A stretch of DNA of 64,000 nt from Aspidapion aeneum (Eukaryota > Arthropoda > Insecta > Coleoptera > Brentidae), in contig OY755045.1 of assembly GCA_963576565.1 (NCBI GenBank), forward strand, positions 3,595,477-3,659,476, read 5' to 3'. Under the pieces are notes generated by a model that worked only from the letters and a program-made list of their open reading frames with translations, searched no databases and was not told where the DNA came from. The position numbers and the translations under genes are program-made. Below, piece by piece: positions 13,801 to 61,869 of this stretch. The stretch's first letter is position 1, and every line of letters starts with the position of its first letter.

Positions 13801-16800
13801 ATCCGAAACATAAAAGAGGATCCAAAATTATATTAAAATGTGCGCAAATATTGATTTAGTTGCAAAGACGGTAATTTGTTTTGTGAAAAGCTCCGTCATA
13901 ATTTGTTTGACATGCAGTCAAAATAACAACGAATAGAAAACGTTAAAGCCCTGTTAAATCAATAATATGTTCGTAACAACCAGATAATAGTATATATGTT
14001 CCTTTCTAATGAAATCGTTTAGAAGAAGACATCAATAAAAAGCAAGTAAAATAGTAAGCTAATGACTAATTAGTGCAGTGCCTCATTTTGGGAATCAATA
14101 TCAATAAAAAAATTAAAGGAAGTGCGTGCCACTGTATGTACCCCTCTACTCCCTTCCCGCCCATCAAGGTTTTGATGACGCGGTGTCACTTTAATACAAC
14201 ATCAACTATATATTAGGTAATTTCTAGGAATAAAAACAAAAAGTAAAAAAAAAATTAAACTTTGGTTTTTTAAATAAATTAGCTTATACTACTAATATTA
14301 CTACTATGTCGGTTTAGAACGTTTTTCTACGTTGTGTGACGCCTATTCTCCACCTTCTTCGATCATCAGGTTTTTTGACTCATTGATCTTTGGATTGACT
14401 GTTGCCATTCTAGTTTAGGACGCCCTTTTTTTCTGCGCCCTATTGGTTGTCATTCTAGGACCTGCTTGGTAATATTTCGTCATTCATTCGTTGCCTATAG
14501 CCGTACCATATCAGTTGCCTTTTAGTTATGTCATCCGTTATGCTTCCCTTGATTCCAATTTTAGCTCACACTATACTATAGTAGTGTGAGCTAAGTGATC
14601 CTAATTTTTTCGAGAAAAAAAAAGTTGCTCCGATTTCAAAAATTTTTATATATCTTTGCGTTTCAGATGATTTTGAAACTTTTTTGTTGCGCCGTCTGTC
14701 TGTCTGTCTGTATGTCTGTCTGTAACGACCAACGCGCATAACTCAAAAACCGCTTGCCCGATTTTAATGAAATTTGGTACCTACGCTGGGTTTTGGGTCG
14801 AGATGGTCCCATTTAAAAATGAACAAAATCCACCAAACACAAGCCAAATAAAAGGGTGGGGGTATATTTCAAAAATTAGAGTTTATGTAAAAATATGGCG
14901 TGTGTGATATCAAACGAAAGGTAATTGCGTCTGGAGTTAAATAAAATACATTTTACTTTAAAAAAAGGGTGGGGGTAAATTAAAAAAATTAGTGTTTATG
15001 TGGAAATATGGCGTGTGTGATATCAAACGAAAGGTAATTGAGTCTGGAGTTAAACAAAATACATTTTAGTTAAAAAAAAAGGTGGGGGTAGATTTGAAAA
15101 ATTAAATTTTAAGTCAAAACATGGCTTGTGTGGTATCAAGCGAAAGGTAATTGAGTCTGGATTTCAATAAAATACATTTCAGTTTTTAGTTATATTAGCT
15201 CACACGTACACTATAACTATAGTACCTAGTGTGAGCTTAGGTGCCCATAGATTGGCAGAGTATTTTCTGTTATGATCTCATTTGTTATATTGCATCCATT
15301 TTGACACTTTCCATTTTTATTTGGTATGTTTCTGTTACGCGACAAGTCTCTATTTCATACAACAGCGTGCTTTTCCCAACAAACAATTAAAGTTGTAACG
15401 ACGAAACCCCAACTAGAAAGAATTTCTTAAAAGTAACCGCAACGTACTCCCGCTACGTCTCAGTATACCATACAGCGACGTTATAATTCCCTAAGTGGGG
15501 AACCAATTTCTGGTTATAACTACTTGGCCAAGTGTTTAAAGTCACTGTAGTAACAACTACACTACTACGTCGTAGCCAGGTATCTACTACGTCGTAGAAG
15601 CTGTTTTTTTCCGTAATGGCATAAAAGTTGCGATGTAGTTGCAAATAATATAATCGTTTCTTTTTGGTAGAATTGTTACACAATATGGTGGACACAACAG
15701 TAAACAGACTCGCTTAGTTTTTTTGTTTGGTTATGGTTATAATATGAACTATGTTATCCAAAAGTGTGAGAATTTACGAGCAGAGGATCAAAATTCGAGT
15801 GCGACGAAGTTTTTTGTATAACATGCATTATTTTGCAAAAAACCGGTGCGCCCGTAAAATTGAGCCGTTTTCTGGTAGCTGATGGAATTTTTGTGTTGTG
15901 ATTTTGGAGGTTATGTTTTCATAATCGACAGTTAACTCCAACAAATGGTGCTTAAGAAGAGCATTTTTGGTAAGCTTCAACTAATTTGTTTATAAAATAG
16001 TATGGCTCTTTAATATGAGCTCATAAATCGACAACAAAAATATTAAATTTTCTTTCTTACATAAAAACATGGCGTCCCAAACTATATTCCCTGATAGTCG
16101 AAAAGATTACTTGAAAGTAGTTGCGGCTTTAAAGTTGATCCAAAAAGTTATTTTGTCTACATTGTTACATCAGATGTTACTATGATGACACAAACTTTTG
16201 TGGTAAAAATTAAAGTTATAATGTAGTTGTCGGATACACTTGTTTGGGACTCCAATGAAGCTTAACTTTCTAGTGGTAATTAAGTAGGATATAAAAGTCA
16301 GGGCGACTACGCAATAACGACTAAAAAGAAAGTAAAACTTTAGCAACGTCCTATTGTGGTAGAGAAGACTATCAGAATCGACTATCAAGAAACAATCCTA
16401 TGAAGTAGTTTAGAGGGTCGTTTTTACGAAACATCTACTATTTCCTGATACTAAATAGTAGTTAGAACTAAAAAGTAACAAATTTTGGTTGGGATCACCA
16501 CATTTCTACTATAAGAAAGTAGCAAAACCTTTAGAACATGTAGCCGCTACTATAAATGTTAGTTGGGTTCACCATTGTTTCATATATCTTAAATTTTACA
16601 TTATTTTTTATCTTTTTGCTCCATAAAATACTGTTAAGACATCCAATAACCTTTTTTGCTTTTACTATTCTTTTCCGTTCTTTACAGTCACCCAAGTATA
16701 CATACTCATTGCATGGAGATATTATTTGTCCATTGTCTAGTTCTAACTCACTTGATTCGTTTCCAATACATAAGTACTGTGTCTTGTCCACGTTCACTGT

Positions 16801-19800: not shown

Positions 19801-22800
19801 GCACACACACACAGACAGACATTACGAAGATAGGTCAAAATACACTTCAATAACACATTTTCGGAGTTATCTGAGAAAAAAAATTTCGTCGAAAATAATA
19901 CCTTCTCTAGCCATTGCTGTGCGGGCTAGGAATGTAAAAACTAGAGGTATATTTGAAAACTTTAACCTATTGCTCAGTTCACGAGCTATAGCGATATTTT
20001 TCACAAAATAATCTAGTGCCTTTGTGGTAGGAAAAAAAATACAAAAAAAAGTTTTTTATGTGTAGTTTTAGGCAAAAGCGACTAGTACTATTTGTAAGAG
20101 CAATAAAAGTTATATAATACCTGAAAACCAATGAAAAAAGGATGATTAGAATATATTTTTTTAAATTGGCAAGAATGATCAAAAATTGGCTGAAATCGTA
20201 AAAAATCTATATCTTGACTATCCTTTGTTCAATGGTAATAAAATGTTTATAACTTTTACTCCTCTTTCGAATAGTACTGTCGCTTTAGCCTAAAATTACA
20301 AATAAAAAAAATTGTAGCTTTTTCTACAGGGAAACCAGAAGACAACTAAGAAGTTTGATACGCACAGAAAAGTAAGTATGGAAATTCGTTTCTACAGTAA
20401 AAAACCCAACAAAAGAAAAAGTAAACATCCAGATCATCAAACCAGAACAATGGACAGAGCACTACAAGGGACTGCTGCAGGAAACGAGACCGGAATATCT
20501 GTCAGCCTCTCCGAGGAGAGACATAGAAGTACATGGAGAGGAAGTAATCATCGAAAAAGAAATGATAAAGACTAGTCTTAAAAAGCTTAAATCCTGAAAA
20601 GCTAGATATGCTGAAATGCTCAAATATGGATCAGAGAAACTACTAGAAAATCTTACATATATTATCAATCAATGCATAAACGGACATCCAGTACCTGATG
20701 ATCTCAATACATAAAAAAAGAAACAAGTTGAATTGCAACAATTACAGAGTAATTTAAGTAACTAGTACTCTAAGTAGATTGTACGTTAGGATTCTTAGAG
20801 ATCTAATAGAGAATGATTTTCATGAACAAGAAGAGGAGCAAAATGAGTTTCGTGCAGGCAGATCTTTTAGTGATAATGTTTTTTGTCTTAAACAAGTAAT
20901 TGAGAAAAGGAGCGCCAGAAATATAGAGACTTATGTTACCTTAGTTGTTGGTTGTGAAATTTGCCCAAAACCCCCCCAAAAATGACCAAGTTGGATCACG
21001 CTATATACTCACCATAGTCTCAAAAGGAATCGCCCTAGAAGCGTGGTAATACATGGCGATAAAATTGATAAAGAACGCAGTTCCACATACGAACGCGGGC
21101 AACATAAAGGCCGAAGCGACCATTTGTCTGATCCACAATTTGCCGCCCATTCTCGCATAGAGGGACCCACCAAAGTAGCCGTTGATCGGGGATGTGACGG
21201 CGTAGACGAAAATCGCAGTTGATAGAAGCATGCCTCGCCTAAAAAGAAAATAAAAAAATGTATCTTATACAGGGTGTCCCAGAACTAATGGTACATGGTT
21301 AAACTGTAGATTCCTTGGGTCAAAATATTACGATTTAGGCATACTTACCTTAGTCCAAAAGTTCGTATTAACCGAGATACAGGGTGTTAAACTTTATTTT
21401 TTCAATTCGATTTTCTTTAATAACTTTTTTACTAATTAATATTTTTGCAAAAACTAACCAGCGTGTAAGTTTTTTTTAAATTGCCAAGACGATTCCGTTG
21501 AAAAATTTGAGGTACAGTGTACAGGGTGTTCCTTGGAGCACTACCATTGCATAAAAATCAGTATATTAGCTCACACATATACTATACTATAGTAGTATGA
21601 GCTATGGTGATCCTAATTTTTTCGAGAAAAAAAAAGTTGCTCCGATTTCAAATATTTTTATATATCTTTGCGTTTCAGATGATTTTGAAACTTTTTTGTT
21701 GCGCCGTCTGTCTGTCTGTCTGTCTGTATGTCTGTCTGTCATCTGTAACGACCAACGCGCATAACTCAAAAACCGCTTGGCCGATTTTAATGAAATTTGG
21801 TACCTAGGCTGGGTTTTGGGCCGAGATGGTCCCATTTAAAAATGAACAAAATCCACCGAACACAAACCAAATAAAAGGGTGGGGGTAGATTTCAAAAATT
21901 AGAGTTTATGGGGAAATATGGCGTGTGTGATATCAAACGAAAGGTAATTGAGTCTGGAGTGAAACAAAATACATTTTAATTTATTTAAAAAAAAGGGTGG
22001 GTGTATATTTCAAAAATTGGAGTTTAAGTGAAAATATGGCGTGTGTGATATCAAACGAAAGATAATTGAGTCTGGAGTTAAAAAAAAATACATTTTTGTT
22101 TTTAAAAAAAGGGTGGGGGTAGATTTGCAAAATTAGAGTTCAAGTCAAAACATGGCTTGTGTGGTATCAAACGAAAGGTAATTGAGTCTGGAGTTCAATA
22201 AAATATACTTCAGTTTTTAGTTATATTAGCTTTCAAGTAGATACACTAAAGCTATAGTACCCAGTGTGAGCTTATGTGCCCATAGATTGGCAGAGTATTT
22301 TTTTTGTGCCTCAGTGTATACCAGTTTTTATGTAAAATAATGGTTTTCCCATCCTTTTTATTTAAAAAAGTTATACTGTCTTAAAGTCGCTCAGAGCAAC
22401 GGTTTTTGAGTTTAAATTTTTTATTGCATGTGAGTGATCTGCCTAATTTATGTATGATACTTTCTTCAATTCTTTCTACTAATTAATAATTTTGCACAAA
22501 AAATTGGGTTTGGTGATTTTAGGGCATGGACAATTTAATTTAGGTTAAAAAAATCAAAATATTATACAGGGTGTTCTCTGGCTCGGTACCGTTACATTAA
22601 AATAGGTCTAACTTTTTTATTCCTCGGTGTATACAAGATTCTATAAAAAAACATAAATTTTTTAATTTTTTTTAAGTAAAAAAGTCATGGTGTTTAGATG
22701 TCGCTTAGAGCAGCGGTTTTAAAGATATTTAAATTATAATTTTTTATTGTATGCATAAAAGATTTTTGATTAAATTATTACCTACTTCATACATATTAGC

Positions 22801-25800
22801 TATAATCAATAATTTTTTATAGCATTTTAAGATTGGATGTTTTCTTAAGAAATATTAAGTTAAAAAATATACAGGGTGGTTCTTGAATTATCATAAGTGT
22901 GTTATCATTGTTCGTTATTGCAACTGTGTAGGGCTTTGTTTTTAATGAGGAACAAAAACCTCTTCGTATTAGTTTTTTTAAAAATGGTATTTACGTATAC
23001 TTTATTAATGCAAGTATTTTTTTATTGTTTTGAAAGAAAATTTTAATTATTAATAAAATTAATATTTTATTATTTATCAGCAACAAAGTTAAAATTTTAA
23101 AATTGAGAAATAGTAAATCGAACTTAAAATTGTTTATTATGGTAGGCTTTGAAAATAAAAAAACAATAAAATCCAATAAAGTTGCTGTCTGCGTCTATTC
23201 TGTCAAACTTTCTTAAAACTACAGAACTTTTTGTAAAATTACTTAATAATTAAAATCATATTCTGTTTAAAAACCTGCTATACACCGAGGCACAAAAAAA
23301 ATAAGATGACGATGATTTTAATGCAATGGTAGTGGTCCAAAGAGCACCCTGTACATTGTACATCAACTTCTTCAACGGAATCGTCTTGCAAATTTCAGAA
23401 AAACCTACTTGCTGGTTAGTTTTTGCAAAAATATTAATTAGTAGAAAGAATTGAAGAAAGTATCATACATAAATTAGGCATTTCACTCACATGCAATAAA
23501 AATTTTAAATGCAAAAATCTCAAAAACCGTTGCTCTGAGCGAGTTTAAAACAGTATGACTTTTTTACATAAAAAGGATGGGAAAACAATTATTATATATA
23601 AAAACTGGTATACACCGAGGCACAAAAAAAATACAGTGATTTTAATGCAAGGGTAGGAACAAGGAACACCCTGTACATTGTACATCAAAATTTTCAACGG
23701 AATCATCTTGTCAGTTTCAAAAAAAATTACACACTTGTTATTTTTTGCAAAAATATTAATTAGTAAAAAAGTTATTAAAGAAAATCGAATTAAAAAAATA
23801 AAGTTTAACACCCTGTATCTCGGTTAGTACGAACTTTTGGACTAAGGTAAGTGTGGCTAAATCGTAATATTTTGACCCAGGGAATCTACAGTTTAACTAT
23901 GTACCATTAGTTCTGGGACACTCTGTATATTGCGTGGCCAGCTTTCTATCTAGGGGTAGGATTTTTGTATGGGCCATACGGATTGCATGACAAAACAGAC
24001 CAACGTCGCCAGTTTAGCGAAAATATCAGTATAAATCCGCTACTTGGTTCGCGAAGGGTCAACTTTTCAGTTTTATGTAGGTGCATTCATCAAAGAGGGT
24101 GATAAACAACCAGAATAATACCTTAAAATTCTGCTTGTTCCTAAATGTAAATAATTCACTTACTTTTACAAACAAACAGAATTTTAAAGTGTTGTTCTTG
24201 TTCTTGATTTTCGTTTCACATTCACTAAAGTCAATTTTTTTACACCACAGTTTACCAATCTATTGGTAAGCTATTATTTAATTTTAGGTTTTTTTTTTAA
24301 TGCATTTTTAGTCTAAAAGTGGGTTTACACATGCATGAATTTAGTGGCGCCAGTGTTCGCGCCAGTTCCATTTGCACGCCAGTAAAGGTTTACACTATTG
24401 TGCGAAAATTAAATGGCACGCCAGTTTCATTTTTAAAGTGTAGATGATACGCGATATGTCGGCTGAACTCTCGGAAGCTAAACTTTTATTGAAAAAAAAA
24501 TAAAAGAGATTCAGGAAAAGGAACAACGAAAAGGCCGTATCTGCATGGGTTAAAGCATGGATTGCTAGTCGATCTACTTTGGGTGCTTCCGAAAAACTTT
24601 TAGGAGAACTTGCAGCAGAAGATCCTGCGAGCTATAAAAACCATCTTCGAATCACAAAGCAACATTTTGATATTCTTCTAGAGTTTCTCTTATTTAAACA
24701 ACATTCTTTAAAATTCGGTCTGCTACTTTAAACCATGGTACTTTTGGGGTGTATTCTTCATTTGCACCGGCTCCGGAACGTTGGCTTTTTTTAATTTTTG
24801 TCAATTCCAAAGCATATGTGTTTCTTATGGATCATATTTTTGCTTTTACTTCTGCAACTTTAAAGCCTTCAATAGTCATTATTTTACAAATTTTTTGGGA
24901 AGCATTATCTCGACTATCTTTGTTTTTATACGAACTACTGTGTACATCCCATAAACAAGGAAAACATTCATAGCCTTCAAGAAACTGTATGGTCAGTTCT
25001 GCTGACCACTTTTTTTAGCCATATTAAGCTATAAAAACAAAAATAAACAAAATTTTTAAGCTCAAACACAATGAAAATAAAAAATATTGTAAAATAATGA
25101 ACTTAAAACTGGCGAGCCGACGTGCAAGCACTTGTTTACACATGAAAATTTTCCTTTTCTGCGCGCATGCGTCACCACTGGCGCCAGCAAATTCAGTCAG
25201 CTGCAGACTTTTTTGATACATGCATGCAAAAAAATAACTTGTGTGCAAGTCGGTGTTTACACTTGCAAATTTAACTTACTGGCGCGCCAGTTTTTATTGG
25301 CGCCAGCAAATCCATGCATGTGTAAACTCTCCTTAACCCTAACAAAGGTAGACCACAGTGAACGCAGCGTGGTTATAGGACGTGGGAGGGTGGTCGAGAC
25401 CTTAGGGGGGCGGCAGAGGTGGATCATAAAAGTAGTTCCGCGGAGCTCATTTAGTATTTTTTAGACGAAAACATCATAATTATGAGTATTAATGCCTTTT
25501 AAACTAAAAACGAAAATTTTCAGAAAATATTGAAGTAATAAACGTGGAATTTCGTACCCGTGAATTTAAAAATCAAACAAGTTTCGTGGCTAATCGGGAA
25601 AAAGGAGTTTTTTGTTTCCCTTATATTTTTCCGTGGGTAGCCTGAAAGCTTAACCTCACGGGGGTCCAAGATCTAATGGACACCTAATAGGTGTTGACAG
25701 TTAACCGTTTCGTCCTTATGGGACTCCTCAGAACACTGCTGGTCAATGTGACAAATCTTGCGAAGTTAATCAGACGGTTTTGTCTCTAATTAAATGTAAT

Positions 25801-28800
25801 TAGTGAGCGAACTATAGCAAGACGCGCCATCTACCGAGATACGAGAGAAACAAAAAACTAAAAGCAGGCGAAAACACTGCTGTACAATATCGATCACTGA
25901 AAAGATCGAATGCAAATAAAAGAAAACAACTATAGTCCGTGACCTACGACAGCTCTTTGTCTTTCAGGCCGGATCAACACAGATTGCATTTTTACCCGTC
26001 TTCAAGACAGTGAGCGTCAATCAACGGAATTTTTAAGCCAAATAATACTAACAAACGTGGAATTTCGTACCCGTGAATTTAAAAATCAAACAAGTTTCGT
26101 GGCTAATCGGGCAAAAAGGAGTTTTTTTGTTTCCCTTATATTTTTCCGTGGGTAGCCTGAAAGCTTAACCTCACGGGGGTCCAAGATCTAATGGACACCT
26201 AATAAGTGTTGACAGTTAACCGTTTCGTCCTTATGGGACTCCTCAGAACACTGCTGGTCAATGTGACAAATCTTGCGAAGTTAATCAGACGGTTTTGTCT
26301 CTAATTAAATGTAATTAGTGAGCGAACTATAGCAAGACATATAGAGATAGCGAGAGAAACAAAAAACTAAAAGCAGGCGAAAACACTGCTGTACAATATC
26401 GATCAATGAAAAGATCGAATGCAAATAAAAGAAAAAACAACTATAGTCCGTGACCCACGACAGCTCTTTGTCTTTCAGGCCGGATCAACACAGATTGCAT
26501 TTTTACCCGTCTTCAAGACAGTGAGCGTCAATCAACGGAATTTTTAAGCCAAATAATACTAACAAACGTGGAATTTCGTACCTGTGAATTTAAAAATCAA
26601 ACAAGTTTCGTGGCTAATCGGGCAAAAAGGAGTTTTTTTGTTTCCCTTATATTTTTCCGTGGGTAGCCTGAAAGCTTAACCTCACGGGGGTCCAAGATCT
26701 AATGGACACCTAATAAGTGTTGACAGTTAACCGTTTCGTCCTTATGGGACTCCTCAGAACACTGCTGGTCAATGTGACAAATCTTGCGAAGTTAATCAGA
26801 CGGTTTTGTTTCTAATTAAATGTAATTAGTGAGCGAACTATAGCAAGACATATAGAGATAGCAAGAGAAACAAAAAACTAAAAGCAGGCGAAAACACTGC
26901 TGTACAATATCGATCAATGAAAAGATCGAATGCAAATAAAAGAAAAAACAACTATAGTCCGTGACCTACGACAGCTCTTTGTCTTTCAGGCCGGATCAAC
27001 ACAGATTGCATTTTTACCCGTCTTCAAGACAGTGAGCGTCAATCAACGGAATTTTTAAACCAAATAATACTAACAAACGTGGAATTTCGTACCTGTGAAT
27101 TTAAAAATCAAACAAGTTTCGTGGCTAATCGGGCAAAAAGGAGTTTTTTTGTTCCCCTTATATTTTTCCGTGGGTAGCCTGAAAGCTTAACCTCACGGGG
27201 GTCCAAGATCTAATGGACACCTAATAAGTGTTGACAGTTAACCGTTTCGTCCTTATGGGACTCCTCAGAACACTGCTGGTCAATGTGAGAAATCTTGCGA
27301 AGTTAATCAGACGGTTTTGTCTCTAATTAAATGTAATTAGTGAGCGAACTATAGAAAAGACGCGCCATCTACCGAGATACGAGAGAAACAAAAAACTAAA
27401 AGCAGGCGAAAACACTGCTGTACAATATCGATCAATGAAAAGATCGAATGCAAATAAAAGAAAACAACAATAGTTCGTGACCTACGACAGCTCTTTGTCT
27501 TTTAGGCTGGATCAACACAGATTGCATTTTTACCCGTCTTCAAGACAGTGAGCGTCAATCAACGGAATTTTTAAGCCAAATAATACTAACAAACGTGGAA
27601 TTTCGTACCCGTGAATTTAAAAATCAAACAAGTTTCGTGGCTAATCGGACAAAAAGGAGTTTTTTTGTTTCCCTTATATTTTTCCGTGGGTAGCCTGAAA
27701 GCTTAACCTCACGGGGGTCCAAGATCTAATGGACACCTAATAAGTGTTGACAGTTAACCGTTTCGTCCTTATGGGACTCCTCAAAACACTGCTGGTCAAT
27801 GTGACAAATCTTGCGAAGTTAATCAGACGGTTTTGTCTCTAATTAAATGTAATTAGTAAGCGAACTATAGCAAGACGCGCCATCTACCGAGATACGAGAG
27901 AAACAAAAAACTAAAAACAGGCGAAAACAATGCTGTACAATATCGATCAATGAAAAGATCGAATGCAAATAAAAGAAAACAACTATAGTCCGTGACCTAC
28001 GACAGCTCTTTGTCTTTCAGGCCGGATCAACACAGATTGCATTTTTACCCGTCTTTAAGACAGTGAGCGTTAATCAACGGAATTTTTAAGCCAAATAATA
28101 CTAACAAACGTGGAATTTCATACCCGTGAATTTAAAAATCAAACAAGTTTCGTGGCTAATCGGGCAAAAAGGAGTTTTTTTGTTTCCCTTATATTTTTCC
28201 GTGGGTAGCCTGAAAGCTTAACCTCACGGGGGTCCAAGATCTAATGGACACCTAATAAGTGTTGACAGTTAACCGTTTCGTCCTTATGGGACTCCTCAGA
28301 ACACTGCTGGTCAATGTGACAAATCTTGCGAAGTTGATCAGACGGTTTTGTCTCTAATTAAATGTAATTAGTGAGCGAACTAACGGATCAACACAGATTG
28401 CATTTTTACCCGTCTTCAAGACAGTGAGCGTCAATCAACGGAATTTTTAAACCAAATAATACTAACAAACGTGGAATTTCGTACCTGTGAATTTAAAAAT
28501 CAAACAAGTTTCGTGGCTAATCGGGCAAAAAGGAGTTTTTTTGTTTCCCTTATATTTTTCCGTGGGTAGCCTGAAAGCTTAACCTCACGGGGGTCCAAGA
28601 TCTAATGGACACCTAATAAGTGTTGACAGTTAACCGTTTCGTCCTTATGGGACTCCTCAGAACACTGCTGGTCAATGTGAGAAATCTTGCGAAGTTAATC
28701 AGACGGTTTTGTCTCTAATTAAATGTAATTAGTGAGCGAACTATAGAAAAGACGCGCCATCTACCGAGATACGAGAGAAACAAAAAACTAAAAGCAGGCG

Positions 28801-31800
28801 AAAACACTGCTGTACAATATCGATCAATGAAAAGATCGAATGCAAATAAAAGAAAACAACAATAGTTCGTGACCTACGACAGCTCTTTGTCTTTCAGGCC
28901 GGATCAACACAGATTGCATCTTTACCCGTCTTCAAGACAGTGAGCGTCAATCAACGGAATTTTTAAGCCAAATAATACTAACAAACGTGAAATTTCGTAC
29001 CCGTGAATTTAAAAATCAAACAAGTTTCGTGGTTAATCGGGCAAAAAGGAGTTTTTTTGTTTCCCTTATATTTTTCCGTGGGTAGCCTGAAAGCTTAACC
29101 TCACGGGGGTCCAAGATCTAATGGACACCTAATAAGTGTTAACAGTTAACCGTTTCGTTCTTATGGGACTCCAGAGAACACTGCTGGTCAATGTGACAAA
29201 TCTTGCGAAGTTAATCAGACGGTTTTGTCTCTAATTAAATGTAATTAGTGAGCGAACTATAGCAAGACGCGCCATCTACCGAGATACGAGAGAAACAAAA
29301 AACTAAAAGCAGGCGAAAACACTGCTGTACAATATCGATCAATGAAAAGATCGAATGCAAATAAAAGAAAACAACTATAGTCCGTGACCTACGACAGCTC
29401 TTTGTCTTTCAGGCCGGATCAACACAGATTGCATCTTTACCCGTCTTCAAGACAGTGAGCGTCAATCAACGGAATTTTTAAGCCAAATAATACTAACAAA
29501 CGTGAAATTTCGTACCCGTGAATTTAAAAATCAAACAAGTTTCGTGGTTAATCGGGCAAAAAGGAGTTTTTTTGTTTCCCTTATATTTTTCCGTAGGTAG
29601 CCTGAAAGCTTAACCTCACGGGGGTCCAAGATCTAATGGACACCTAATAGGTGTTGACAGTTAACCGTTTCGTCCTTATGGGACTCCTCAGAACACTGCT
29701 GGTCAATGTGACAAATCTTGCGAAGTTAATCAGACGGTTTTGTCTCTAATTAAATGTAATTAGTGAGCGAACTATAGCAAGAGGCGCCATCTACCGAGAT
29801 ACGAGAGAAACAAAAAACTAAAAGCAGGCGAAAACACTGCTGTACAATATCGATCAATGAAAAGATCGAATGCAAATAAAAGAAAACAACTATAGTCCGT
29901 GACCTACGACAGCTCTTTGTCTTTCAAAAAAACTCATTTTTGCCCGATTAGCCACGAAACTTGTTTGATTATTGAAGTAATGTTTCTTTAAGTGCTCGCA
30001 GGCGACATGCGCCACAGGCAAAAATGTTTTAAATACAAAAGGAACATTTTTAAACAAAAATCGATACAAAAAAAGTTGATAGTAAAGTTGATTGTTTTAA
30101 GGTAAAATTGGTTAAATAATAATTTTAACTAACCCTTTTTTTAAAATCGTTTGAGGTGTTCTTGAGTTATCATGTATTGAGACAGACAATTTATTTTATT
30201 ATCCGATCTTGGTGTTTTAGGAACTAAATAACTCACGTTTTTAATACCTAGTCCACTTCTTGTATGGTGACAAGTCAAGTAATAATTCTCGCCCTAAAAA
30301 AATGTTTCAGATTGTGCGCCCCTTGACGAGTGCGACCGCGTGCGCCTCTAGTAATTTATCAAGGTTACTTTTGACAACGCTGCAAAGCTTCCTGCGGGAA
30401 TTGTCGCGGTCTCTTTTTAATAAATGCTATACTCTATCTGTTTTTTATCCTCTTATGGAAATTTATACCCCTAGATGTAAACTTGTTCACGCGGTATGAG
30501 ATATTTCCACGTTTACTGAAGCGTATTAAAAATATTAATAGAAAATTAGTTGGATTAAATAATTCGACGGTTTTAATAAAATTTAAAAGCGACTTTTCAA
30601 ATTACATCGACAATTTGTCAATTCGTCTGATTAACTTCGCAAGATTTGTCACATTGACCAGCAGTGTTCTGAGGAGTCCCATAAGGACGAAACGGTTAAC
30701 TGTCAACACTTATTAGGTGTCCATTAGATCTTGGACCCCTGTGAGGTTAAGCTTTCAGGCTACCCACGGAAAAATATAAGGGAAAAAAAAACTCCTTTTT
30801 GCCCGATTAGCCACGAAACTTGTTTGATATTTAAAAAATTCTTTGGATTTTGAAAGTTTTGGAACACAAAGCCATTAGGGACTTATTGCACTAAAGCCAC
30901 GTAATAATAGTGCCGGGCACTATTCTGACAGTTTTCCATTGAAAACTGACAGTTGATCTTTCAAAATTGACGTACCAAAGTCGAATTTATAAATCCAGTC
31001 GTTTATATTCCATTAATAGTGGCGGCACTATTAGTTCCGGCTCTTACAATATAAAGGCCTAATTTTGAAAGAAGACAGCTGTTCTTATGATGCGAAACTG
31101 TCACAATAGTGCCCGGCACAATTATTGCAATAAGTCCCTATTATCTTAAGTTGACGTACCCGCTTACTTGAAAATTTTTTAAACAAATTAAAAGGTATTT
31201 ATCCTAAGGTAACTGATAATGGGTGCTTTCAAGCTTAGAAAAGAGATGGCGCTGATTGTGGTTGACATTGACAGATGTCTGAATTGAATTTAAATCTAAG
31301 TAAGACTTACTCTGTGTAGAGCTCCCCGAATATGGCAAAAATAATAACGCAGAAGATCACAGTGGTAAGTTGGTGACCAGCGCCAATGAGAGCGGAAAAC
31401 AGTAAGGAATTGGAGGCTGGTCTAAATACGTCACCATGGACTTGTTTCCAGCCGTATTCATCTCCCAAGTCTCTTTCCTAAAATAAAGATAAATCATAAT
31501 TATTATAAACATTGTTTACCAGGTGGACCAAACAAAATCGGTGTACAGTAATGTATGGATAGTCCGAACCCCCCTTAATCCGAAATACTCTATAATCCGA
31601 ACGACCCAATTTCGTAAAATGATATCCATAATCTGAACACTTTGAATTCTGCAAACCAAATTACATATACATACTGTAGGTATTAGCTCACACTACTACT
31701 ATACTATAGTAGTGTGAGCTATAGTAATCCTAATTTTTTCGAGAAAAAAAAAGTTGCTCCGATTTCAAAAATTTTTATATATCTTTGCGTTTCAGATGAT

Positions 31801-34800
31801 TTTGAAACTTTTTTGTTTCGCCGTCTGTCTGTCTGTCTGTCTATCTGTCTGTGCCTGTCTGTCTGTAACGACCAACGCGCATAACTCAAAAACCGCTTGC
31901 CCGATTTTAATGAAATTTGGTACCTACGCTGGGTTTTGGGTCGAGATGGTCCCATTTAAAAATGAACAAAATCCACCAAACACAAGCCAAATAAAAGGGT
32001 GGGGGTATATTTCAAAAATTAGTTTATGTAAAAATATGGCGTGTGTGATATCAAACGAAAGGTAATTGCGTCTGGAGTTAAATAAAATACATTTTTCTTT
32101 TTAAAAAAGGGTGGGGGTAAATTAAAAAAATTAGTGTTTATGTGGAAATATGGCGTGTGTGATATCAAACGAAAGGTAATTGAGTGTGGAGTTAAACCAA
32201 ATACATTTTAGTTTAAAAAAAGGTGGGGATCGATTTGAAAAATTAAAGTTTAAGTCAAAACATGGCTTGTGTGGTATCAAACTAACGGTAATTGAGTCTG
32301 GAGTTGAATAAAATATATTTCAGTTTTTAGTTATATTAGCTCACACGTACACTATAACTATAGTACCTAGTGTGAGCTTAGGTGCCCATAGATTGGCAGA
32401 GTATTTTTCGTATGTATTTGTAATATGCCTGTACTTATTTTCTATAGTACATACATACCCATGTAAGGTGTTCCTCTTCCTTAGAAGTTTGTTTTCACTT
32501 TGAAATACATACGTTATAGTGTGTATAAATGTATGTATTTCTGTATAACATAAATAAATGTTTTTATAGCCATTGAGTACGTGAACTTTTTGTGATAAAA
32601 ATGTATTTGTACGGCTAAGAAATGTATCTATAAACTGAACGTGTTCGGATTAAACATATTATTTATTTTGAATTTTATAATCCGAAAGTTTTGATAAACC
32701 GAACGGGTTCTGCCAACTTTCTGTTCGGATTATCCATACATTACTGTATAGTGAAACCTGCTATAAGCGGACACTCACGGTTTCGTCGATTTTGTCCGCT
32801 TATTGGAGGTGTCCGCTTAAGAGAGAGAACTGCGAAATTTTAATATATATTTATGAAGAATTTTCGCTGCTAGAGTTTTTTCGATGTTAGATTTTTCAGC
32901 GATCTTTGAAGCTGATAGATGTTCGTTCTCCGAAACGTTAACAACTTCCAGTTTTTTACGTAAACTAAGAAGTTTTTTACTAGATGCCATTTCAAAGAGA
33001 TCTATTACTACCCAACTGAACAATAAAAATAAAACACAGCAGTCCCACCGAATAAAATATATTGTAAATACTACAGAAGTATTTAGTCTCAGCATTAAAG
33101 CGGAAAAAGGTAATTCCCTGGCTGCAAATTGCGTTGTTGCTAAAATACTACATAATATTTATGCCCATGTCGTGCAGCGCTTCGTCCCGTTGTCAGAGGT
33201 TCGCGTCCGGTTAAGGGAGGTTTCAGAATTTTTTAACCGCGTCCAGTTATTAGAGTGTCCGGTTATAAAAGTGTATTTTACATGTAAAGAAATAGGAAAA
33301 AGCTTGGTTCGAACAAATTTGTCCGTCTAAAGGGAGTGTCCGCTTAATAGCCCATTTATTATTTATAGCAGAAGCTAAAAGGTTGCCAGCGCCTTTCCTT
33401 AAAACCATTAGTTTCAATGTTTGGTTGCATCACGTTCCCATTACCCTTATATACCCCTTAGACCTCCTAAATGGGACTCCTTAATTGGTGGTGGCAACCT
33501 ATGTGTTACACTCACTATAAAACCATAAGAAATAAACTCCAGCTTCGCCCTCTACCGGTTCCACCAGTATAGAACCTTTTAGAGCCTAAAGCTATTATGC
33601 CAGGTTCTAAAAGCAACTCAAAAACGTCTTCTATCCTATTATAAAACTAGATTTGGTAATTTGGGATCCTGGTGATTCTGTTGAATACCATAATACCTTT
33701 AGAGTAAAGAAGTTTTCCTATAAAAGCTATGGCGATATTTTAGATTCACAATGGCTATATAAAATAATTTAGGTCACAAAATTGCCAAAAATGTCAGAGT
33801 CGCAAAATTATTTTATCACATAAAAATATACCGAGTTTGCCGTTTTGTTGATGATCAAATTGCCTGCCAGATTTATTTTTCTGATAAAATCGTATCTGAA
33901 AAGCTCTCAAAACAAGCGCGCCAGCTCAAGAATGCTTTTTAATAGTTTTTTGATAACAAAATAACAAATATTTAACATTTTTAAAAAATCATTTTCACCA
34001 TTAAAAACGTCTGTTTGGTTTACATAAATCAAAATTAAAGTAAAATTATTGTTAAAAAACACTGCTGAAAGGACTAGATAAATATTTTCTCTTTACAATA
34101 TTTTTTAAATAAATTTATATACGCCATTATGGTTTTATAGTGGTCACTTGGTTTTATTTGTTACTGTATCGCAACAAAGATTTTTGAGTGCCCTTATGAA
34201 ACCAACAAAAAAGAACAATGTAAACATAGTCAACATAACCTCACTTAAATTTTTTGTATTTATTTTTAAAGTGTTTAAAAGTGTATAATTCAACACTTCT
34301 AAATGTTTTTTATCGTGCAATTTTGACACAATCGAGAGGGCCAGTGCAATGATATTCGTTGTGCCTGCAGATCGGAGGGCAACCTCTTATATTGGCCGTC
34401 TAAACAGGCCTTATGTAGGCCTGGGTGTCCTACCCAGGAGGACGGAAACTCAACAATTATTAATTATTGGGCTTTAAATAATCAATCTTGCAATAGGTAG
34501 GTACCAATTTGTACCTAGGTATATCTATTATTTTTACAAGAAAAAGAAATACTTAAAAAAAATAAAACTCGAAAGTATTTACTTACTTCTGTTAGAACCC
34601 TTAAGGAAACAAGGTTTTATATGGCCGCCTATTTAAATAATATTTAATATACAGCTATGGGTAACTATAAATACAAAAGAATTAAGTTTACCTTTAAGCC
34701 TTGCTATAAAACCTTTTTAAAATGCCTAAAAGTAATGGCAAAAACCAAAAGTTTTTATTTAGTTTATATTTACCACTCTTAAAAACCTTAAGGAAACTAG

Positions 34801-48200: not shown

Positions 48201-51200
48201 ATATTAGGCAAAGAAAAAAAATCATCATTATATTTCTCATTCGAAAAGTACTTGAAAGACCTTTCAAATAAGCTCCATGTTACTAATCTAGTTTAAGTAG
48301 TCTAGAGATATCTTATTTTTTTAAAATTATATGTTTTAGCTAAATTGGCAGTTTTTTTGATTTTGCAAAAATTAGTTAAAAAAACTATTTAGCTTAGTAC
48401 CTACTTAAAATTTCGGATTTTTTCATCCCCTCTATGACCCCTAACTTTTGGCAATTTGTGTTACTATCTCGAGATTCTCTAGATGAAGATACTATCCTGG
48501 CACATAGAAGAGTAAAAAACAGTGTTAGAAAAAGTATCACAGTTATAAACCCTGATAGTGATACAAGGTATTTAGTCCCAATTATAATTTAGGAACCACA
48601 AAAGCAGAAAACTTCAGCAGAAACCCGGCCAGTCACTCACTTAAGAAGCAAGTATGCAGTAAGATTGTGTACTGAAGAATTACACATTCCTCACAGAGAG
48701 GTGCCTGTAGAGGTTCTAAGGCATTTTAGGGTAAGTACTACCCATGTAACTTTCTGACAAAGCCTCATACTTGTAGTTAACGCGGCTAGTCTCAGTCAGT
48801 CCAATGTTGTCAAGTTATTGGGTTATTTTTGAGGTTTATAAAGTATAATATTTATTGTAGGATGCTTTTAAACAGATTTTATTATCAAACGTGAAATTTC
48901 GTACCCGTGAATTTAAAAATCAAACAAGTTTCATGGCTAATCGGGCAAAAAGGAGTTTTTTGTTTCCCTTATATTATTCCGTGGGTAGCTTGAAAGCCCA
49001 ACCTCACGGGGGTCTAAGATCTAATGGACACCTAATAAGTGTTGACAGTTAACCGTTTCGTCCTTATGGGACTCCTCAGAACACTGCTGGTCAAGTGACA
49101 AATCTTGCGAAGTTAATCAGACGGTTTTGTCTCTAATTAAATGTAATTAGTGAGCGAACTATAGCAAGAGGCGCCATCTACCGAGATACGAGAGAAACAA
49201 AAAACCAAAAGCAGGGAAAAACACTGCTATACAATATCGAACAATGAAAAGATCGAATGCAAATAAAAGAAAACAACTATAGTCCGTGACCTACGACAGC
49301 TCTTTGTCTTTTCAGGCCGGATCAACGCTAGTATTATCTCTCTCACTAATTACATTTAATTAGAGACAAAACCGTCTGATTAACTTCGCAAGATATGTCA
49401 CTTGACCAGCAGTGTTCTGAGGAGTCCCATAAGGACGAAACGGTTAACTGTCAACACTTATTAGGTGTCCATTAGATCTTGGACCCCCCGTGAGGTTGGG
49501 CTTTCAAGCTACCCATGGAAAAATATAAGGGAAACAAAAAACTCCTTTTTGCCCGATTAGCCATGAAACTTGTTAGATTTTATTATTTTTTTTATCTAAA
49601 AACACTGTTTTTTAGGTAACACAACCGCACACATTTCTTCCAATTATGGTGGAAGATGCCTTATCAATGAGACTGAAAGAATTAGAAATTATTAAACCTG
49701 ATAAGAGACTTATGAAATTTAAATATGTTTTTAATCCTAGTTCTTTAGGAAAACTCAGGTAAAAAAAGGTCTTTAGCTTTAGTCTTTATCCAACTGTCAA
49801 ATTAAATCTTCAATTTTTCAATTCAATTACCTCTGGAGAAAATCATGCATTTTCAATTCCATAAATCAATTTTTTTCTTGTTCTCTTTTATATTTTGGCC
49901 AATTTATTTGTTTTAGGTTCCTAGTACAAATGGAAGCATCCTTCCAAGAATTTTTAAATTTAGGATTTACTGAAAAAGATACAGATGAAGTAAAGAGTAT
50001 CTTTGCGGACACAAATGTTTATTTGTTATGCGCTACTATGGCTATAGCTAGTGTACATGTAAGTTTTTGATATGCAGGGCTTCCCTGTATATTATTACAT
50101 TTCTAGATCCTCTATTTTTGCCTTCCTAGCTCGCGCAGCAATGGCTAGAGAAGGTATTGTTTTCGATGAAAAGAAGGAAGGTAAAAATATGATAAATACA
50201 AACATTATTCCTATGAAACGTGGAATTTCGTACCCGTGAATTTAAAAATCAAACAAAAGTTTCGTGGCTAATCGGGCAAAAAGGAGTTTTTTTTTGTTTC
50301 CCTTATATTTTTCCGTGGGTAGCCTGAAAGTTAAACTCGCGGCTACAGACTAAAATGCACTCTGGCTCCTTCGATTTCGAGGTTATGTTTTAATTGTTTT
50401 GTTTTTGTTTAAATAGCCTGGAGCATGGAATAAATAAATTTCTTCGATGGTGGAAGTGTTTGAAGTCCTTTCGAGTTTTAAAAATTAGTATTAAAAATAT
50501 TTGTCGTGTCGTTAGTTCGGTCAAATTTAGTTCAAAATAGCGCTAGTAACGAAATAGGGTGTCTTTCTAACATATTTTTTCAAAAAAAAAACTTCCCTGA
50601 CTTCTTTCGCGGGATCCTAGCGGGTGTGAAACAAAACCGAACCGAACCGAACTTAACCGAATCGAATTATCGGTTTAGTTCGGTTTGGTTTCACAACCTC
50701 TGGGATGCCGGTTCAGTTCAGTTCCGTTCGGTTCGGTTCGGTTTTGTTTCACACCCGCTAGGATCCCGCGAAAGAAGCCAGGGAAGTTTTTTTTTGAAAA
50801 AATATGTTAGAAAGACACCCTATTTCGTTACTAGCGCTATTTTGAACTAAATTTGACCGAACTAACGACACGACAAATATTTTTAATACTAATTTTTAAA
50901 ACTCGAAAGGACTTCAAACACTTCCACCATCGAAGAAATTTATTTATTCCATGCTCCAGGCTATTTAAACAAAAACAAAACAATTAAAACATAACCTCGA
51001 AATCGAAGGAGCCAGAGTGCATTTTAGTCTGTAGCCGCGAGTGAAAGTTAAACCTCACGGGGGTCCAAGATCTAATGGACACCTAATAAGTGTTGACAGT
51101 TAACCTTTTCGTCCTTATGGGACTCCTCAGAACACTGCTGGTCGATGTGACAAATCTTGCGAAGTTAATCAGACGGTTTTGTCTCTAATTAAATGTAATT

Positions 51201-54200
51201 AGTGAGCGAACTATAGCAAGAGGCGCCATCTACCGAGATACGAGAGAAACAAAAAAAACCAAAAGCAGGCGAAAGAAAACACTGCTATACAATATCGATC
51301 AATGAAAATATCGAATGCAAATAAAAGAAAACAACTATAGTCCGTGACCTACGACAGCTCTTTGTCTTTCAGACCGGATCAACACAGATTGCATTTTTAC
51401 CCGTCTTCAAGACAGTGAGCGTCAATCAACGGAATTTTTAAGCCAAATAATACTAACAAACGTGGAATTTCGTACCCGTGAATTTAAAAATCAAACAAGT
51501 TTCGTGGCTAATCGGGCAAAAAGGAAAAATATAAGGGAAAAAAAACTCCTTTTTGCCCGATTAGCCACGAAACTTGTTTGATTATTCCTATGGTTTAAGT
51601 TTACCCTACTACTACTTTATTAAATTTTCTAAGGTCAAACTATAACTAGCGATAATTTTTTGATTTATGTCATACTATGAACAAAAAAAGTATTGTGTAA
51701 AATGCGAACATAACTTTTTTGCCACTAAGAATGACTTAATATTTGAATGAGTTTTTAACAAGTTAATTTTAGTTTACTTGGGTCCTTAAAATGATTTTTA
51801 AACATTATGTCTATTTGCTAGTGTTTTTTTTCCTAAATTTAAAAAAGGTTTGTTATTTTTTTTGATCAAAGTGAGTTTTTTTAATCTCAACTGCGTTTTT
51901 TTTTATTTAAATACACAATGCTTCTTTCCTTTAGTGCGCAGAACACGTTTTTCTTTATAATTTATGTTATTAGTAAAAACTTCGTAGAATCATCCGTTTC
52001 TTTAAAAACTTTCAGCATAACAAAACAAAAATATTTTAGCTGCTGTTAGACTTCCTCTCGTTCAAAAATGACGTCAGTTTTTGGAAAAACAAAAAAACAA
52101 TGGCCGGACTTTCGAGCAGGGTCCTATTATGGCGGGCCTTCTCTCAGTGCGTCATATTTTTATACTTGCTAGATGAACAGACCTCGGCTTTGATCCTCGT
52201 CCCGAGTGGAATAGCGACAGTCATAGAGGTAAGTAGAATATTGTTACGGGTTCACAACCACAAATAAAACGAACAAATTTCAAAAACGATATGTTAATTT
52301 ATTTCGACAATACAATGTACAGTCGGGGACTTTTTAAATTGCCGTTTTATTTTTTTTCTGTCAAAATTAATTAATCAATTAAAGAAATCAATTTAAAAAA
52401 AAAATATGTATGTATGGATGATTCTACCAAAAGTGGGCTATATGTGTAAGCTAAGAAATATTTATTTTACCGAATTTTAGGAATTATTGCATAAAGGGAT
52501 GAGTACCAGAGGAATGAGTTTTTAATGGTTTTCCAATTTAAATCAAAATCTATTTAGACTACTTAACTTAAGTTTTATATAAACAAAGTTCCTATACTTA
52601 TAATTTTAAAACAATCAACAAAAAAATTATACTATTGATATCAGTCGAATATTTACTTACCAGAGGAATGATAATTGAAGCGTTCCTTTTTGATTTCTCC
52701 GAAAAAAACTAATTTTCTGCCGAAAATAAAAAGATCTATAACTTAAACCAAACTAAAGATAACATTATCTGTCACAACTTGTCACCCTCACAAGTAAATT
52801 AGATATCCAGGGCCGTCTCTTTCTCTAGAAATTAACCGGTGATATTCACAAATATTGTGTTATTAAACATTTAAAATTGTAAAATTTTCCGAGAAGATGT
52901 AAAAATTGGTTTGGGACTACACGAGAGGAATGAGGTATTTGCTTTGTAATAAAAAAAATTATAAACTTGCAATTTTTTTATACATTAAACTCAAATGCTC
53001 CATAAAGAAAACATTTCGTTTTAAATCTTATAACTAAAACTATGCTTCATTTGCAGTCTGTGTTTAAAAAATATGCATTCCCACTCCACAGCACCATTTT
53101 TGTAGAATCATCCGTATACAGACTAAGGTCCAAAATTTTTTTGTTTTGGTTCAAACTATTTTTCCGAATTTCAAATAGGAATTTTTTTTTATTTTCCAGG
53201 GCGGCAATTTAAAAAGTCTCCAACTGTACAAAAACGTCACTAATAACTCACTACTCAAATCGGCTTATTACCTTCGTGTTAATATCTCGCGATTACTACA
53301 GCTCGTTATCTCTGACTGACCCCGTTACGCGATGTCCACTCGCTTATATACCCTCTGCGATCTTTCGCGAATTATCTATCCTTTTTCGGCGTCTAGAACA
53401 GTCGCGTATACAAGCGAGCGCAAGTCACAGATAACGCAACTAAAACCCAGACTAATAATACAACCATAAGATAAGTCAACCTAATGCTACACTAAACCTA
53501 AATAAAAAAAAACTATAAAATTTCTACAAACAAAACTTTATCTGGGTGTTAAGGACATTTTCTTACTTAAGAAACTACTGCGTTTTCCTAGAAAAATAAA
53601 ATTTACTAACTTGTGGTGTGGTTTTTTAGAAAAAAATAAATATTTGCCTAAAAAATTTGAAAAACTTTTATTTTAACAAAATACACTGGTGTAAAGACCC
53701 TGTATGTATGACATATTTTAAAGATAAAGAGACAAATATGTCATACATACAGGGTAGTTTCGGTTGTTCTACCATCTTCCTCAAGCTCTTTCAGTATTTG
53801 ATTTTTAAATGTTTTTTTTTATCAATAGCGTTTACTCTTTGTTTGAAATTCAAAGAGTTATAAGAAGTTTGTATTTAAGAGCCGTAAATATTTGTAGTAA
53901 TAAAGAAGAATTAACCACAGAAATTAACAACATTAAAAAAGACTTACAACAGAATGGTTATTCTGAGAAATTAATAAGCTCAATGATCTCTAAAATTAAA
54001 AACAAACCAAATGTAGCAATGGTGGGTGTGCTTTCGGGCTGTTCGGCCGTCGTCGTTGGAAATTCGTTCTCGACGTTTCGCCATCTCGAGTGGATGGCAT
54101 CTTCAGGAGATGTTGACTGTTTGTCGGCTTCTCGAAGACTGGTGGTTAGCCTGTCGCGGGCGCAGGTTATATGCGCTATGGTGGGCGGGGCGTATATCAG

Positions 54201-57200
54201 AGCTGGTCGGTGATTGGTCAAATTCCCTTGATTCAGTTTTGTTATTGTCAGCGAGCCGTTTAGTGTTTTTAAGAACCGGTAGAAGTAGAAGAATTTTAAG
54301 AGTTTCTTCAGATCTGTTGAAGTTCTGCTGGTGTTTATGAATTTCGATTGCTTCTCTATAGAGTCTTGGATAGTATGAAGAGAAGGCGCAGAGAACTTGT
54401 GTGTCTTCGAATTTTATTCGGTGGTCTTCATTGTTTAGTGTGTGGTCTGCAACTGCGGATTTTTCCGTATGTCCGAGTCGACAGTTGGCTTTGTGTTCTT
54501 TGATTCTTGTGTTTACGGACCGTTTGGTTGTTCCGATGTAGACACTTCCACAGGTACAGGGAATGCGGTATACCCCCGAAGAACTTAGTGGGTTCCTTAT
54601 ATCCTTCGCAGATCTGAGGTGGTTCTCGATCTTCTTAGATGGCTTGAAGATCGTTTTTATGTTGTGTTTTCCCAGAATACGTCCGATCCTATCTGTCACT
54701 CTAGGGATGTAGGGCAGAAAGGCTCTTGAAGAAACTTCGCGGCTGCTCAGTCCACCGCTACTGTTACTTCTAGTGCTCGGCTTTGGTCGTATACATTTAT
54801 CTATGTCGCTTTGAGTGTATCCATTTGCTACGAGGGCGTTTTTAAGATGGTTTAATTCTTTGTCTAGATGTTCTGGTTCGCAGATTCTTTTCGCCCTCTC
54901 TACCAATGTTCTTATTACCCCTTTTCGTTGGCACGGGTGGTGGTTAGATGTGTTGTTTAGGTAGCGGTCTGTGTGAGTAGATTTTCTGTATACGGTATGT
55001 CCTAGTCGTCCCTCTTTCCTCGTTACTAGTACGTCAAGGAATGCTAATTCTCTGTTGTTCTCTGTTTCCATTGTAAATTGTATACTGGGGTGTATGCTGT
55101 TAATGTGGTTGAGAAATTCATTAAGGCTGTCTCTACCACTCGAGATGGCGAAACGTCGAGAACGAATTTCCAACGACGACGGCCGAACAGCCCGAAAGCA
55201 CACCCACCATTGGACGATGGCCGCGAAAGCCTTTCACAATTTGTACAAATGTAGCAAGTTCTCAAAAAATTATAATCCGGTGGGTGGTATTAGCATTCCA
55301 TATGTTCAAGGGATTTCAGAACACATAAGACGAAAACACTATAATATAAAAACAGTATTTTCATCGGGAAATACGATAAGGAGTTTTGTAACTAAAACAA
55401 AACCAGAAAATCCCACAAATAATAAGGAATGTATTTACCAAATCCCGTGTGAGTGTGGTAAATCATATGTAGGTGAAACGAAACGCCCTCTCAGGTTAGA
55501 GTAAATGAACATCTAAAAAGTACCGAATTACACAGGATTCAGTGGTCAGAAGCTAAAGTTTTGCATACGGAGTTGCATTGGCGAAAAGGAAAGTTTACTC
55601 TATTTTAATATAAGTTTGATATAAGTTTATCAAAACAAATGATATTATTTCAAAATGTCAGTCAATATTTTGAACTATGGAAATTTAGACAGAAAAGCGG
55701 GAGTCATAAAATACAACTTATTGTTACGGGTTCACAACGACAATAATCGGTCTATTAACTTCGTGTTAATCTCACGACCACTCAGTATGTTATCTGTGAC
55801 TGACTGACTGATGCACGACGTCCGGCCTTATATATGAGGGCTGCCTACTATTCTAGGACCCTTCCATCCTTGTTCGATTCGCAATCATTCCAGCCCTTTT
55901 CTAGACTTTCGCATACCAGTTTGTCAAAGATAACGCAACTAAAACCTAGATTAAGAATACAACCATAAAATACGTCAACCTAATACTACACTAAACCTAA
56001 ATAAATTCTAACTATAAAATTTAAATACTTAAATTTGTAACATTATGAAGGTTTGGTTTAGTTTATAACATTTTTTTAGAAAATTTAATAATTGTTATGA
56101 CTAATTTAATTAATAAATTAATTAAATTTCAACAATTTCTCGCTCAAAATTTTGTTTTATTTTTTTTATTTTAGTTTTGGAAGGTCACTAAAGTATTCAA
56201 GTCGAAGTTAAAACTTACCTGGACAGGTCCAAGATTTAGAGACGACGTAGAAGAGAGCCAGGAGGAGGCAGATACTAGAAAGTATGACGCAGAGAGTATG
56301 AGATACCTTAGTTGGGTGCTGTATCCACTGTGTATCGGGGCTGCTGTATATTCTTTAATGTATCAGCCCCATAAAAGGTAAGCAAGATATAATCAATATT
56401 CATACATACAAGCGATAAAAGGACTATACAAAGGGTCAAAATCTAAAATTAAAAATCGACTTTCAAAAGAATTCCCGGTAACAAAAGGCTTAAGACAGGG
56501 ATGTTGTATGTCTCCAACTCTTTTTAAAATACATATCGCAATAGCTCTAAAAACTGGAAACGTGAAGTGCACGGCACGGGAATACAACTTAACGACCGAT
56601 TTACCCTATACACACTACAGTTTGCTGACGACCAAGTAATTGTAGCTAATGATAAAGAAGACATGGAGTATATGATGAGAAAGTTAATGGAAGAATGCCA
56701 AAAGTGGGGGATTAACAGTGAACGTGGACAAGACACAGTACAGAGTGTCCCAAATTGGGCACTTTTAGGGGGTTTAAGGTACTTCTAGGGGAGACAGAGA
56801 AAAACTGACCACGCATTGCGAGGCTCAAATTTCAAGAGAAGACTTATAGTGAAAACCGCATTTTGAAATATCGTCTCGTCTTTGAGCTACGGGGCCTTTT
56901 TGAAAAGTCTGCATTTTTGAAGGGGGTCCATAACTTCGTTATTAGTGGAAATTTTGATTTAGAGTAAATTGCAGTTTTATAGACTTTGTCACGAGAAATT
57001 TGTCCGCTAAATTATATTTTAACTGTCACTTTTAGTTTTTGAGATATGACATAAAGTTGCATTTTTTCTTATGGAATAGCCTATATTTTAATTAATTTTC
57101 GAATTTGTCATTGAATTCTTTTCAAAATGGTATATCATATGTCATAGTTTGATTGAACGGTTTAGGAGATATTCAGCTTTTTCACTTATTTCTAGTGCGC

Positions 57201-61830: not shown

Positions 61831-61869
<39 letters not shown>

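Follow-up and report, generated by a model that had tools for sequence, protein, structure and literature searches.

Retrozymes without long terminal repeats (non-LTR retrozymes) that carry type I hammerhead ribozymes are known from animals, insects included, and the consulted part of the main description gives their RNAs as 170-400 nt (Cervera & de la Pena 2020, PMC7229834). Penelope-like elements (PLEs) were named in the same work and in a further paper, as far as the consulted parts of both go, as strong candidates for the movers of these retrozymes, on the grounds of shared features and co-occurrence (PMC7229834, PMC7761336). According to the consulted sections of a report on a purified Anolis PLE, the protein can nick each of the two DNA strands and extend it, preferably at AT-rich sites, and its reverse transcription starts from a pair of neighbouring internal positions, the same ones that define the genomic 'tail' (PMC11167929). 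Given two start sites and the use of both strands, one start site per end and two complementary DNAs (cDNAs) meeting in the middle of the insert are therefore expected.

Here, we analyzed a 64-kb stretch of the beetle Aspidapion aeneum (contig OY755045.1; hereafter the window, meaning the whole stretch), together with the genome of 1.286 Gb in 149 contigs, and found a repeat of ~515 bp that carries a type I hammerhead motif. We conclude, with a probability of about 0.82, that this repeat is a non-coding, non-autonomous retrozyme with a length of ~515 nt and owes its mobility to a PLE. The Penelope-type dual ends of its insertions are the most informative part of the evidence, and the end anatomy shared by the retrozyme and a resident PLE is a new observation; a literature search over titles and abstract openings of open-licence papers found no report of PLE-type ends in retrozymes. 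An earlier reading of the same stretch, made from its letters (the original prediction), had seen a self-cleaving satellite that looked new. The novelty did not survive, as type I hammerheads have already been published in non-LTR retrozymes of animals (consulted part of PMC7229834). Its proposed link to retrozymes and Penelope elements was strengthened by the shared features and the PLE-type ends, which it had not noticed, and the insertion history that it called readable could indeed be read from target-site duplications (TSDs) and mapped ends.

Insertion ends of the retrozyme and of a resident Penelope-like element

Unit positions refer to the orientation that places the ribozyme on the minus strand; site B is unit position 1 and site A is unit position ~33, so that site A is situated 32 nt inside site B. 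The copies in the window and their parts are as follows.

25528..25539, left TSD of insertion 1, TATTGAAGTAAT
25540..29969, minus strand, retrozyme insertion 1 (RNA sense minus): nine units, then an inverted 5' segment at ~29927-29969
28106-28466, internally deleted unit of insertion 1
29498-29926, truncated unit of insertion 1
29970..29981, right TSD of insertion 1, TATTGAAGTAAT
30624..30835, plus strand, partial copy that ends at site A and lacks a B end and a TSD
48886..49574, insertion 2, a direct and an inverted part; TSD AGATTTTATTAT at 48874-48885 and 49575-49586
50216..51580, insertion 3, a direct part and a short inverted end; TSD ATTATTCCTATG at 50204-50215 and 51581-51592

The array at 25540-29969 consists of units of 511-516 bp, of which seven are full, one is internally deleted and one is truncated, and the 12-bp target duplication TATTGAAGTAAT marks its limits at either side. 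Its GC content is 39%, and the longest stop-to-stop stretch within it is only 70 amino acids (aa), with no long open reading frame (ORF). Insertion 3 is interrupted by a nested palindromic element at 50343-51041.

We mapped 28 insertions, comprising 24 genome loci (of ~36 further places) and the four window copies; the flanks of L033 and L034 were 98.6% identical, and these two loci were counted as one event, which leaves 27 independent insertions. The start lay at site B, with AAACGTGG or a one-base variant, in 23 of the 28 insertions and at site A, with ATCAAACAAG or a close variant, in four, while the partial copy in the window had an A end only and no TSD. In particular, 13 of the 28 (12 of them independent) ran from B into an inverted segment whose outer end coincided with A or fell a few bases from it; in this class, L032 and L037 stopped short of A and L039 reached A via a short jump, as judged by eye. 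This inverted class is expected from the dual-start mechanism of PLEs, and it was seen. All 13 insertions of the class were flanked by shared strings of 10-14 bp, mostly 12; a few of these bases may be part of the element itself. Over the whole set, shared strings of 10-14 bp were present in 14 of the 28 insertions and strings of at least 9 bp in 15; among mismatched flank pairs used as a control, 10 of 754 reached at least 9 bp, with a maximum of 11. The other B-start insertions ended by direct truncation (9 of 23, the far end of L027 being uncertain) or, at L048, in an inverted segment that halted near site B. Additionally, opposite-strand ribozymes no more than 2.5 kb apart were arranged head to head (minus then plus) in 11 of 11 cases among the first 100 listed matches of the ribozyme 41-mer, and opposite-strand neighbours within the same distance in 14 of 14 among the first 100 listed matches of a flank 41-mer, the places being partly overlapping.

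Two further patterns were observed at the ends. L031, L047 and L049 end at unit position 295-297, a stop that might mark the 5' end of the transcript. Three of the four non-inverted A-start insertions (L030, L038 and L046) end near A again, at unit positions 33, 49 and 46, respectively, as if the enzyme had halted at its own start site.

Twin priming can yield 5' inversions, and a LINE-like (long interspersed nuclear element) reverse transcriptase ORF (RVT_1) is present in the window, so that mobilization by a LINE-type retrotransposon through ordinary twin priming has to be considered. We regard it as very unlikely, however, as both ends of the insertions are fixed sites 32 nt apart, inspection by eye found no poly-A or 3' simple repeat at the retrozyme junctions, and the same plan was found in a PLE that resides in the window, here called PLE1.

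54020..55245, minus strand, truncated PLE1 copy with a GIY-YIG ORF; A at left, inverted tail to B at right
54008-54019 and 55246-55257, TSD of PLE1, CAAATGTAGCAA

The GIY-YIG domain is carried by the window ORF at 54103-55233 (minus strand). The PLE1 family has at least 140 matches with 94-100% protein identity (the best of 12,263 first-look candidates were scored) and looks large and young; several copies hold open frames of 880 aa, and a 777-aa open stretch at L055 contains both RVT_1 and GIY-YIG. In 15 PLE1 3' ends, we found GAAACGTC in 15, CTGAAGA in 14 and both stem II arms in 13, which we read by eye as a putative minimal hammerhead of the PLE type. These ends halted at A (...GCACACCCACC) in 11 of the 15 and at B (...CTTTCACAATT), 33 nt further, in the remaining 4. 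Each of the five copies for which both ends were retrieved, the window copy included, had one A end and one B end, with shared flank strings of 12-13 bp; the 20 cross pairs gave no more than 7 bp. Opposite neighbours no more than 7 kb apart were all head to head, with 18 of 18 cases among the 140 PLE1 matches listed and 19 of 19 among 150 listed matches of a further resident PLE, PLE2. Direct tandems were mostly spaced 2.55-2.6 kb. The plans of the retrozyme and PLE1 are thus alike in five respects: the ribozyme lies upstream, two end sites are 32-33 nt apart, each insertion has one of each, the inversion is head to head, and the TSD is of ~12 bp. We also observed that the window copy of PLE1 (54008-55257) is nested in an older PLE2 copy, with parts at ~53790-54019 and 55251-55520 as delimited by eye, and that the retrozyme at L051 is inserted in a PLE2 copy at almost the same point as the window PLE1.

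This likeness of plan raises the question of whether the repeat could be a pseudo-LTR left behind by an autonomous PLE family instead of a separate retrozyme. PLE pseudo-LTRs likewise have hammerheads and a tandem arrangement, as described in the consulted parts of two papers (PMC3846280, PMC7761336). This origin appears unlikely, however, given that the hammerhead of the repeat has a 4-bp stem III and differs from the minimal one of PLE1, that its units stand head to tail without a stop-free stretch of more than 70 aa, and that it shows no similarity to PLE1, the one PLE family covered by the comparison.

Hammerhead motifs and the genome-wide family

Hammerheads were located with a strict scan for a CUGANGA core, stem II of at least 3 bp, GAAA, stem III of at least 3 bp, NUH and stem I of at least 4 bp. 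The sites are listed together with the method that reported them.

25691..25736, minus strand, intact type I hammerhead with a 5-bp stem I (strict scan)
26205..26252, minus strand, intact type I hammerhead (strict scan and relaxed Rfam)
26716..26763, minus strand, intact type I hammerhead (strict scan and relaxed Rfam)
27227..27274, minus strand, intact type I hammerhead (strict scan and relaxed Rfam)
27743..27790, minus strand, broken hammerhead, core position C3 altered (strict scan, relaxed Rfam)
28258..28305, minus strand, intact type I hammerhead inside the internally deleted unit (strict scan and relaxed Rfam)
28619..28666, minus strand, intact type I hammerhead (strict scan and relaxed Rfam)
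29135..29182, minus strand, broken hammerhead, altered in its core, in stem II and at the cleavage site (strict scan)
29651..29696, minus strand, intact type I hammerhead with a 5-bp stem I (strict scan)
30663-30710, intact hammerhead outside the array, in the partial copy (strict scan)
49038-49085, minus strand, intact hammerhead outside the array, insertion 2 (strict scan)
49411-49458, plus strand, intact hammerhead outside the array, insertion 2 (strict scan)
51089-51136, hammerhead outside the array broken in stem III, insertion 3 (strict scan)

The scan identified 10 type I hammerheads in the window, every one within the ~515-bp repeat; 60 Markov-1 simulated windows of equal length yielded a single match in total. 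Seven of the nine array sites and three of the four ribozyme sites outside the array were intact, exactly as the original prediction had counted; its broader wording, that every unit has a complete hammerhead, fails at 27743-27790 and 29135-29182. The check with Rfam models suggested at that time gave a divided answer. At the gathering threshold, Rfam returned no hammerhead match in the window; at a relaxed threshold, RF00163 matched six array sites, five at 24.7 bits and one, a broken site, at 20.5 bits (cut-off 34), and its sister model RF00008 matched two at 24.3 bits (cut-off 48.5). Even then, Rfam did not match the site at 29135-29182. Stem III has 4 bp when the A15.1-U16.1 pair is included. 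Self-cleavage of the retrozyme hammerhead appears no more than plausible in view of the unfavourable predicted folds considered below; the hammerhead of pDo500 is often not the predicted minimum either (consulted part of PMC2837043), and the Anolis hammerhead required the PLE protein for cleavage (consulted part of PMC11167929).

The exact 41-nt ribozyme core has 2,514 + 2,647 = 5,161 copies in the genome, and its reversed-letter control has none. Unit 41-mers on either side of the ribozyme, taken from the consensus of a 49-unit sample, have 1,985 and 1,367 exact copies. The ribozyme 41-mer is thus the commonest of the three tested unit stretches, at 2.6 to 3.8 times its flanks; part of this contrast may reflect subfamilies that are alike in the ribozyme and different elsewhere. 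A genome search with the unit gave at least 126 matches (the best 39 of 1,477 first-look candidates were scored).

These numbers bear on the view of the repeat as satellite DNA that spread mainly by recombination, by rolling-circle DNA or by unequal crossing-over, the hammerhead being useless. A 361-bp period at 28023-28743 is present within the array, where some units look like later duplications, and animal hammerhead repeats such as pDo500 are classed as satellites in the consulted part of their description (PMC2837043). The dispersed copies, however, have TSDs and two fixed ends, and every opposite pair observed showed the head-to-head inversion. Because the copies are dispersed and flanked by TSDs, spread by recombination was set aside as highly improbable, and the term satellite used in the original prediction gives way to a dispersed mobile element with 5,161 exact ribozyme copies and an insertion bounded by a TSD.

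Several side observations concern other parts of the window and the genome. A hammerhead at 1480-1570 of L001 scored 40.6 bits with RF00163, the sole genome match above the cut-off among the best 74 of 155,298 candidates; it differs from that of the repeat, and no tandem repeat was found around this site. The element nested in insertion 3 (50343-51041) is a near-palindrome of ~700 bp that is 94% identical to its own reverse complement, with a repeat of GAAAGTTAAAC on both flanks, and resembles a foldback DNA element. Between insertions 2 and 3 (48886-51580), there is an exon stretch of a CLPTM1-like gene (PF05602). The hammerhead at 49411-49458 is sense to this gene, so that this predicted ribozyme could cut its pre-mRNA. 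Finally, at four places (14694-15179, 21706-22205, 31823-32326 and 61322-61870), a GTCT/ACAG microsatellite is combined with a 112-119-bp unit in three tandem copies; we take these places to resemble Helitron-type elements.

Probable template and route of copying

PLE-driven copying of a circular or multimeric retrozyme RNA is the likely origin of the insertions. The repeat would be transcribed from the hammerhead strand, after which the hammerheads would cut the multimeric RNA and the monomer would be closed into a circle, or the multimer would be left uncut. A PLE protein acting in trans would nick both strands of AT-rich DNA ~12 bp apart, and reverse transcription would begin at site B from one 3' end and at site A, which lies 32 nt further in, from the other. 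Both cDNAs would travel along or round the template and then be joined head to head, so that tandem units with one inverted segment would result, flanked by a TSD of ~12 bp.

The position of the ribozyme cut narrows the choice of template. Downstream of the cut, it is 158 nt to site B and ~126 nt to site A, so that a cut linear monomer would give a cDNA of no more than 158 nt. Full units are common and span the cut site; the template was therefore circular or uncut and not a cut linear monomer. Run-off of the cDNA at the ribozyme cut site was likewise considered and rejected, as it would account for one event only (L033/L034). Rare variants common to all units of an insertion numbered 14, against a permutation mean of 0.45 and a maximum of 6, which fits repeated copying of one monomer.

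The same element and the same PLE machinery could instead have copied multimeric RNA that was transcribed from an existing array and left uncut, with the ribozyme as a passenger or serving another step. This is a variant of the explanation given above, and the odds of the two overlap; we place it somewhat below an even chance. It would agree with the several unit types in the window array, with the hammerhead fold being disfavoured in prediction, and with the lack of clustering of cDNA ends at the cut site, and the consulted part of the Anolis study reports that the PLE takes unprocessed RNA in vitro (PMC11167929). The 14 shared rare variants, against 0.45 expected, and the excess of the ribozyme 41-mer over its flanks speak against it.

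A number of results weigh against a retrozyme that is cut, circularized and moved by a PLE, and they concern each part of that account. As to the insertions, a shared string of at least 10 bp was found outside the inverted class in only 1 of 15 (L046), and cDNA ends coincide with the ribozyme cut in just the single event noted above. As to the ribozyme, the hammerhead window was not unusually conserved (rank 165 of 468) in the 49-unit sample, whose members were chosen as the closest matches of the window unit, so that the sample is biased to close copies; this conservation and the genome 41-mer counts point opposite ways. In predicted folding, with an energy model that omits tertiary contacts, the hammerhead fold of the 48-nt stretch was 0.6 kcal/mol above the minimum, and in an 86-nt context it reached -11.0 kcal/mol against -18.5 kcal/mol for a competing hairpin, a gap of 7.5; predicted circular folds of three units also displayed the competing hairpin. 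As to the template, within-insertion similarity on 23 common-allele columns was not significant (257 of 1000 permutations), and the window array mixes several unit types, which is not expected from a single circle without later recombination or a multimeric template. As to the mover, the consulted part of the Anolis study states that insertion in vitro was independent of hammerhead cleavage (PMC11167929). Around the start sites, the retrozyme and PLE1 showed no similarity, as 449 of 1000 shuffles were equally good, and no retrozyme similarity was found in the remainder of 15 PLE1 loci, where the best match had an E of 0.072.

A more specific form of the PLE-moved retrozyme is tentatively proposed, at just short of an even chance. 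Animal retrozymes may be dedicated Penelope parasites, that is, RNA circles with a functional PLE dual start signal that are reverse-transcribed from two points by the PLE dimer that cut both target strands, the rolling cDNAs being welded head to head. If so, retrozyme arrays would arise directly by rolling-circle reverse transcription, and PLE mobilization could be tested for by the 'tail' in the genome of every animal with such repeats. More generally, insertion scars that match a resident Penelope element point to who copies ribozyme RNAs into animal DNA, and the PLE as the mover of animal retrozymes, formerly argued from shared features and co-occurrence, is now a testable claim. The repeat also offers a fixed RNA for in vitro work, of ~515 nt with two mapped start sites, and may be a natural record of reverse transcription circling a small RNA several times.

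Comparison with known systems

The pDo500 satellite of Dolichopoda cave crickets has repeats of ~500 bp with a 49-bp hammerhead that is often not the predicted minimum-energy fold, and resembles the present repeat in both respects (consulted part of PMC2837043). It differs in being described there as a satellite, and the two are likened here by description.

The repeat fits the known animal non-LTR retrozymes with a larger unit. The two have in common the type I hammerhead (here in seven of nine array sites, below the Rfam cut-off), head-to-tail units from dimers to multimers without a long ORF, a GC content below 50% (here 39%), a TSD that exceeds the 4 bp found in plant LTR retrozymes (here 10-14 bp in 14 of 28) and PLEs that co-exist in the genome. 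In contrast, the unit is 511-516 bp here and ~150-450 bp in those described (RNA 170-400 nt), a range observed so far and not a mechanistic requirement. The dual A and B ends with the head-to-head inversion are a further difference, the consulted part of PMC7229834 containing no description of them.

Finally, the repeat lacks an ORF for reverse transcriptase or GIY-YIG endonuclease and so is not itself a PLE, and its hammerhead differs from those of PLEs in a stem III of 4 bp. In the arrangement of its insertions, it is nevertheless close to the PLEs of Anolis (PAc, PMC11167929) and A. vaga (PMC3846280) as far as the consulted parts of their descriptions extend. It shares with them a tail of 30-40 bp between two start sites (32 nt here), a hammerhead upstream of the start sites, an inverted terminal segment, a short TSD, an AT-rich target and tandem copies.

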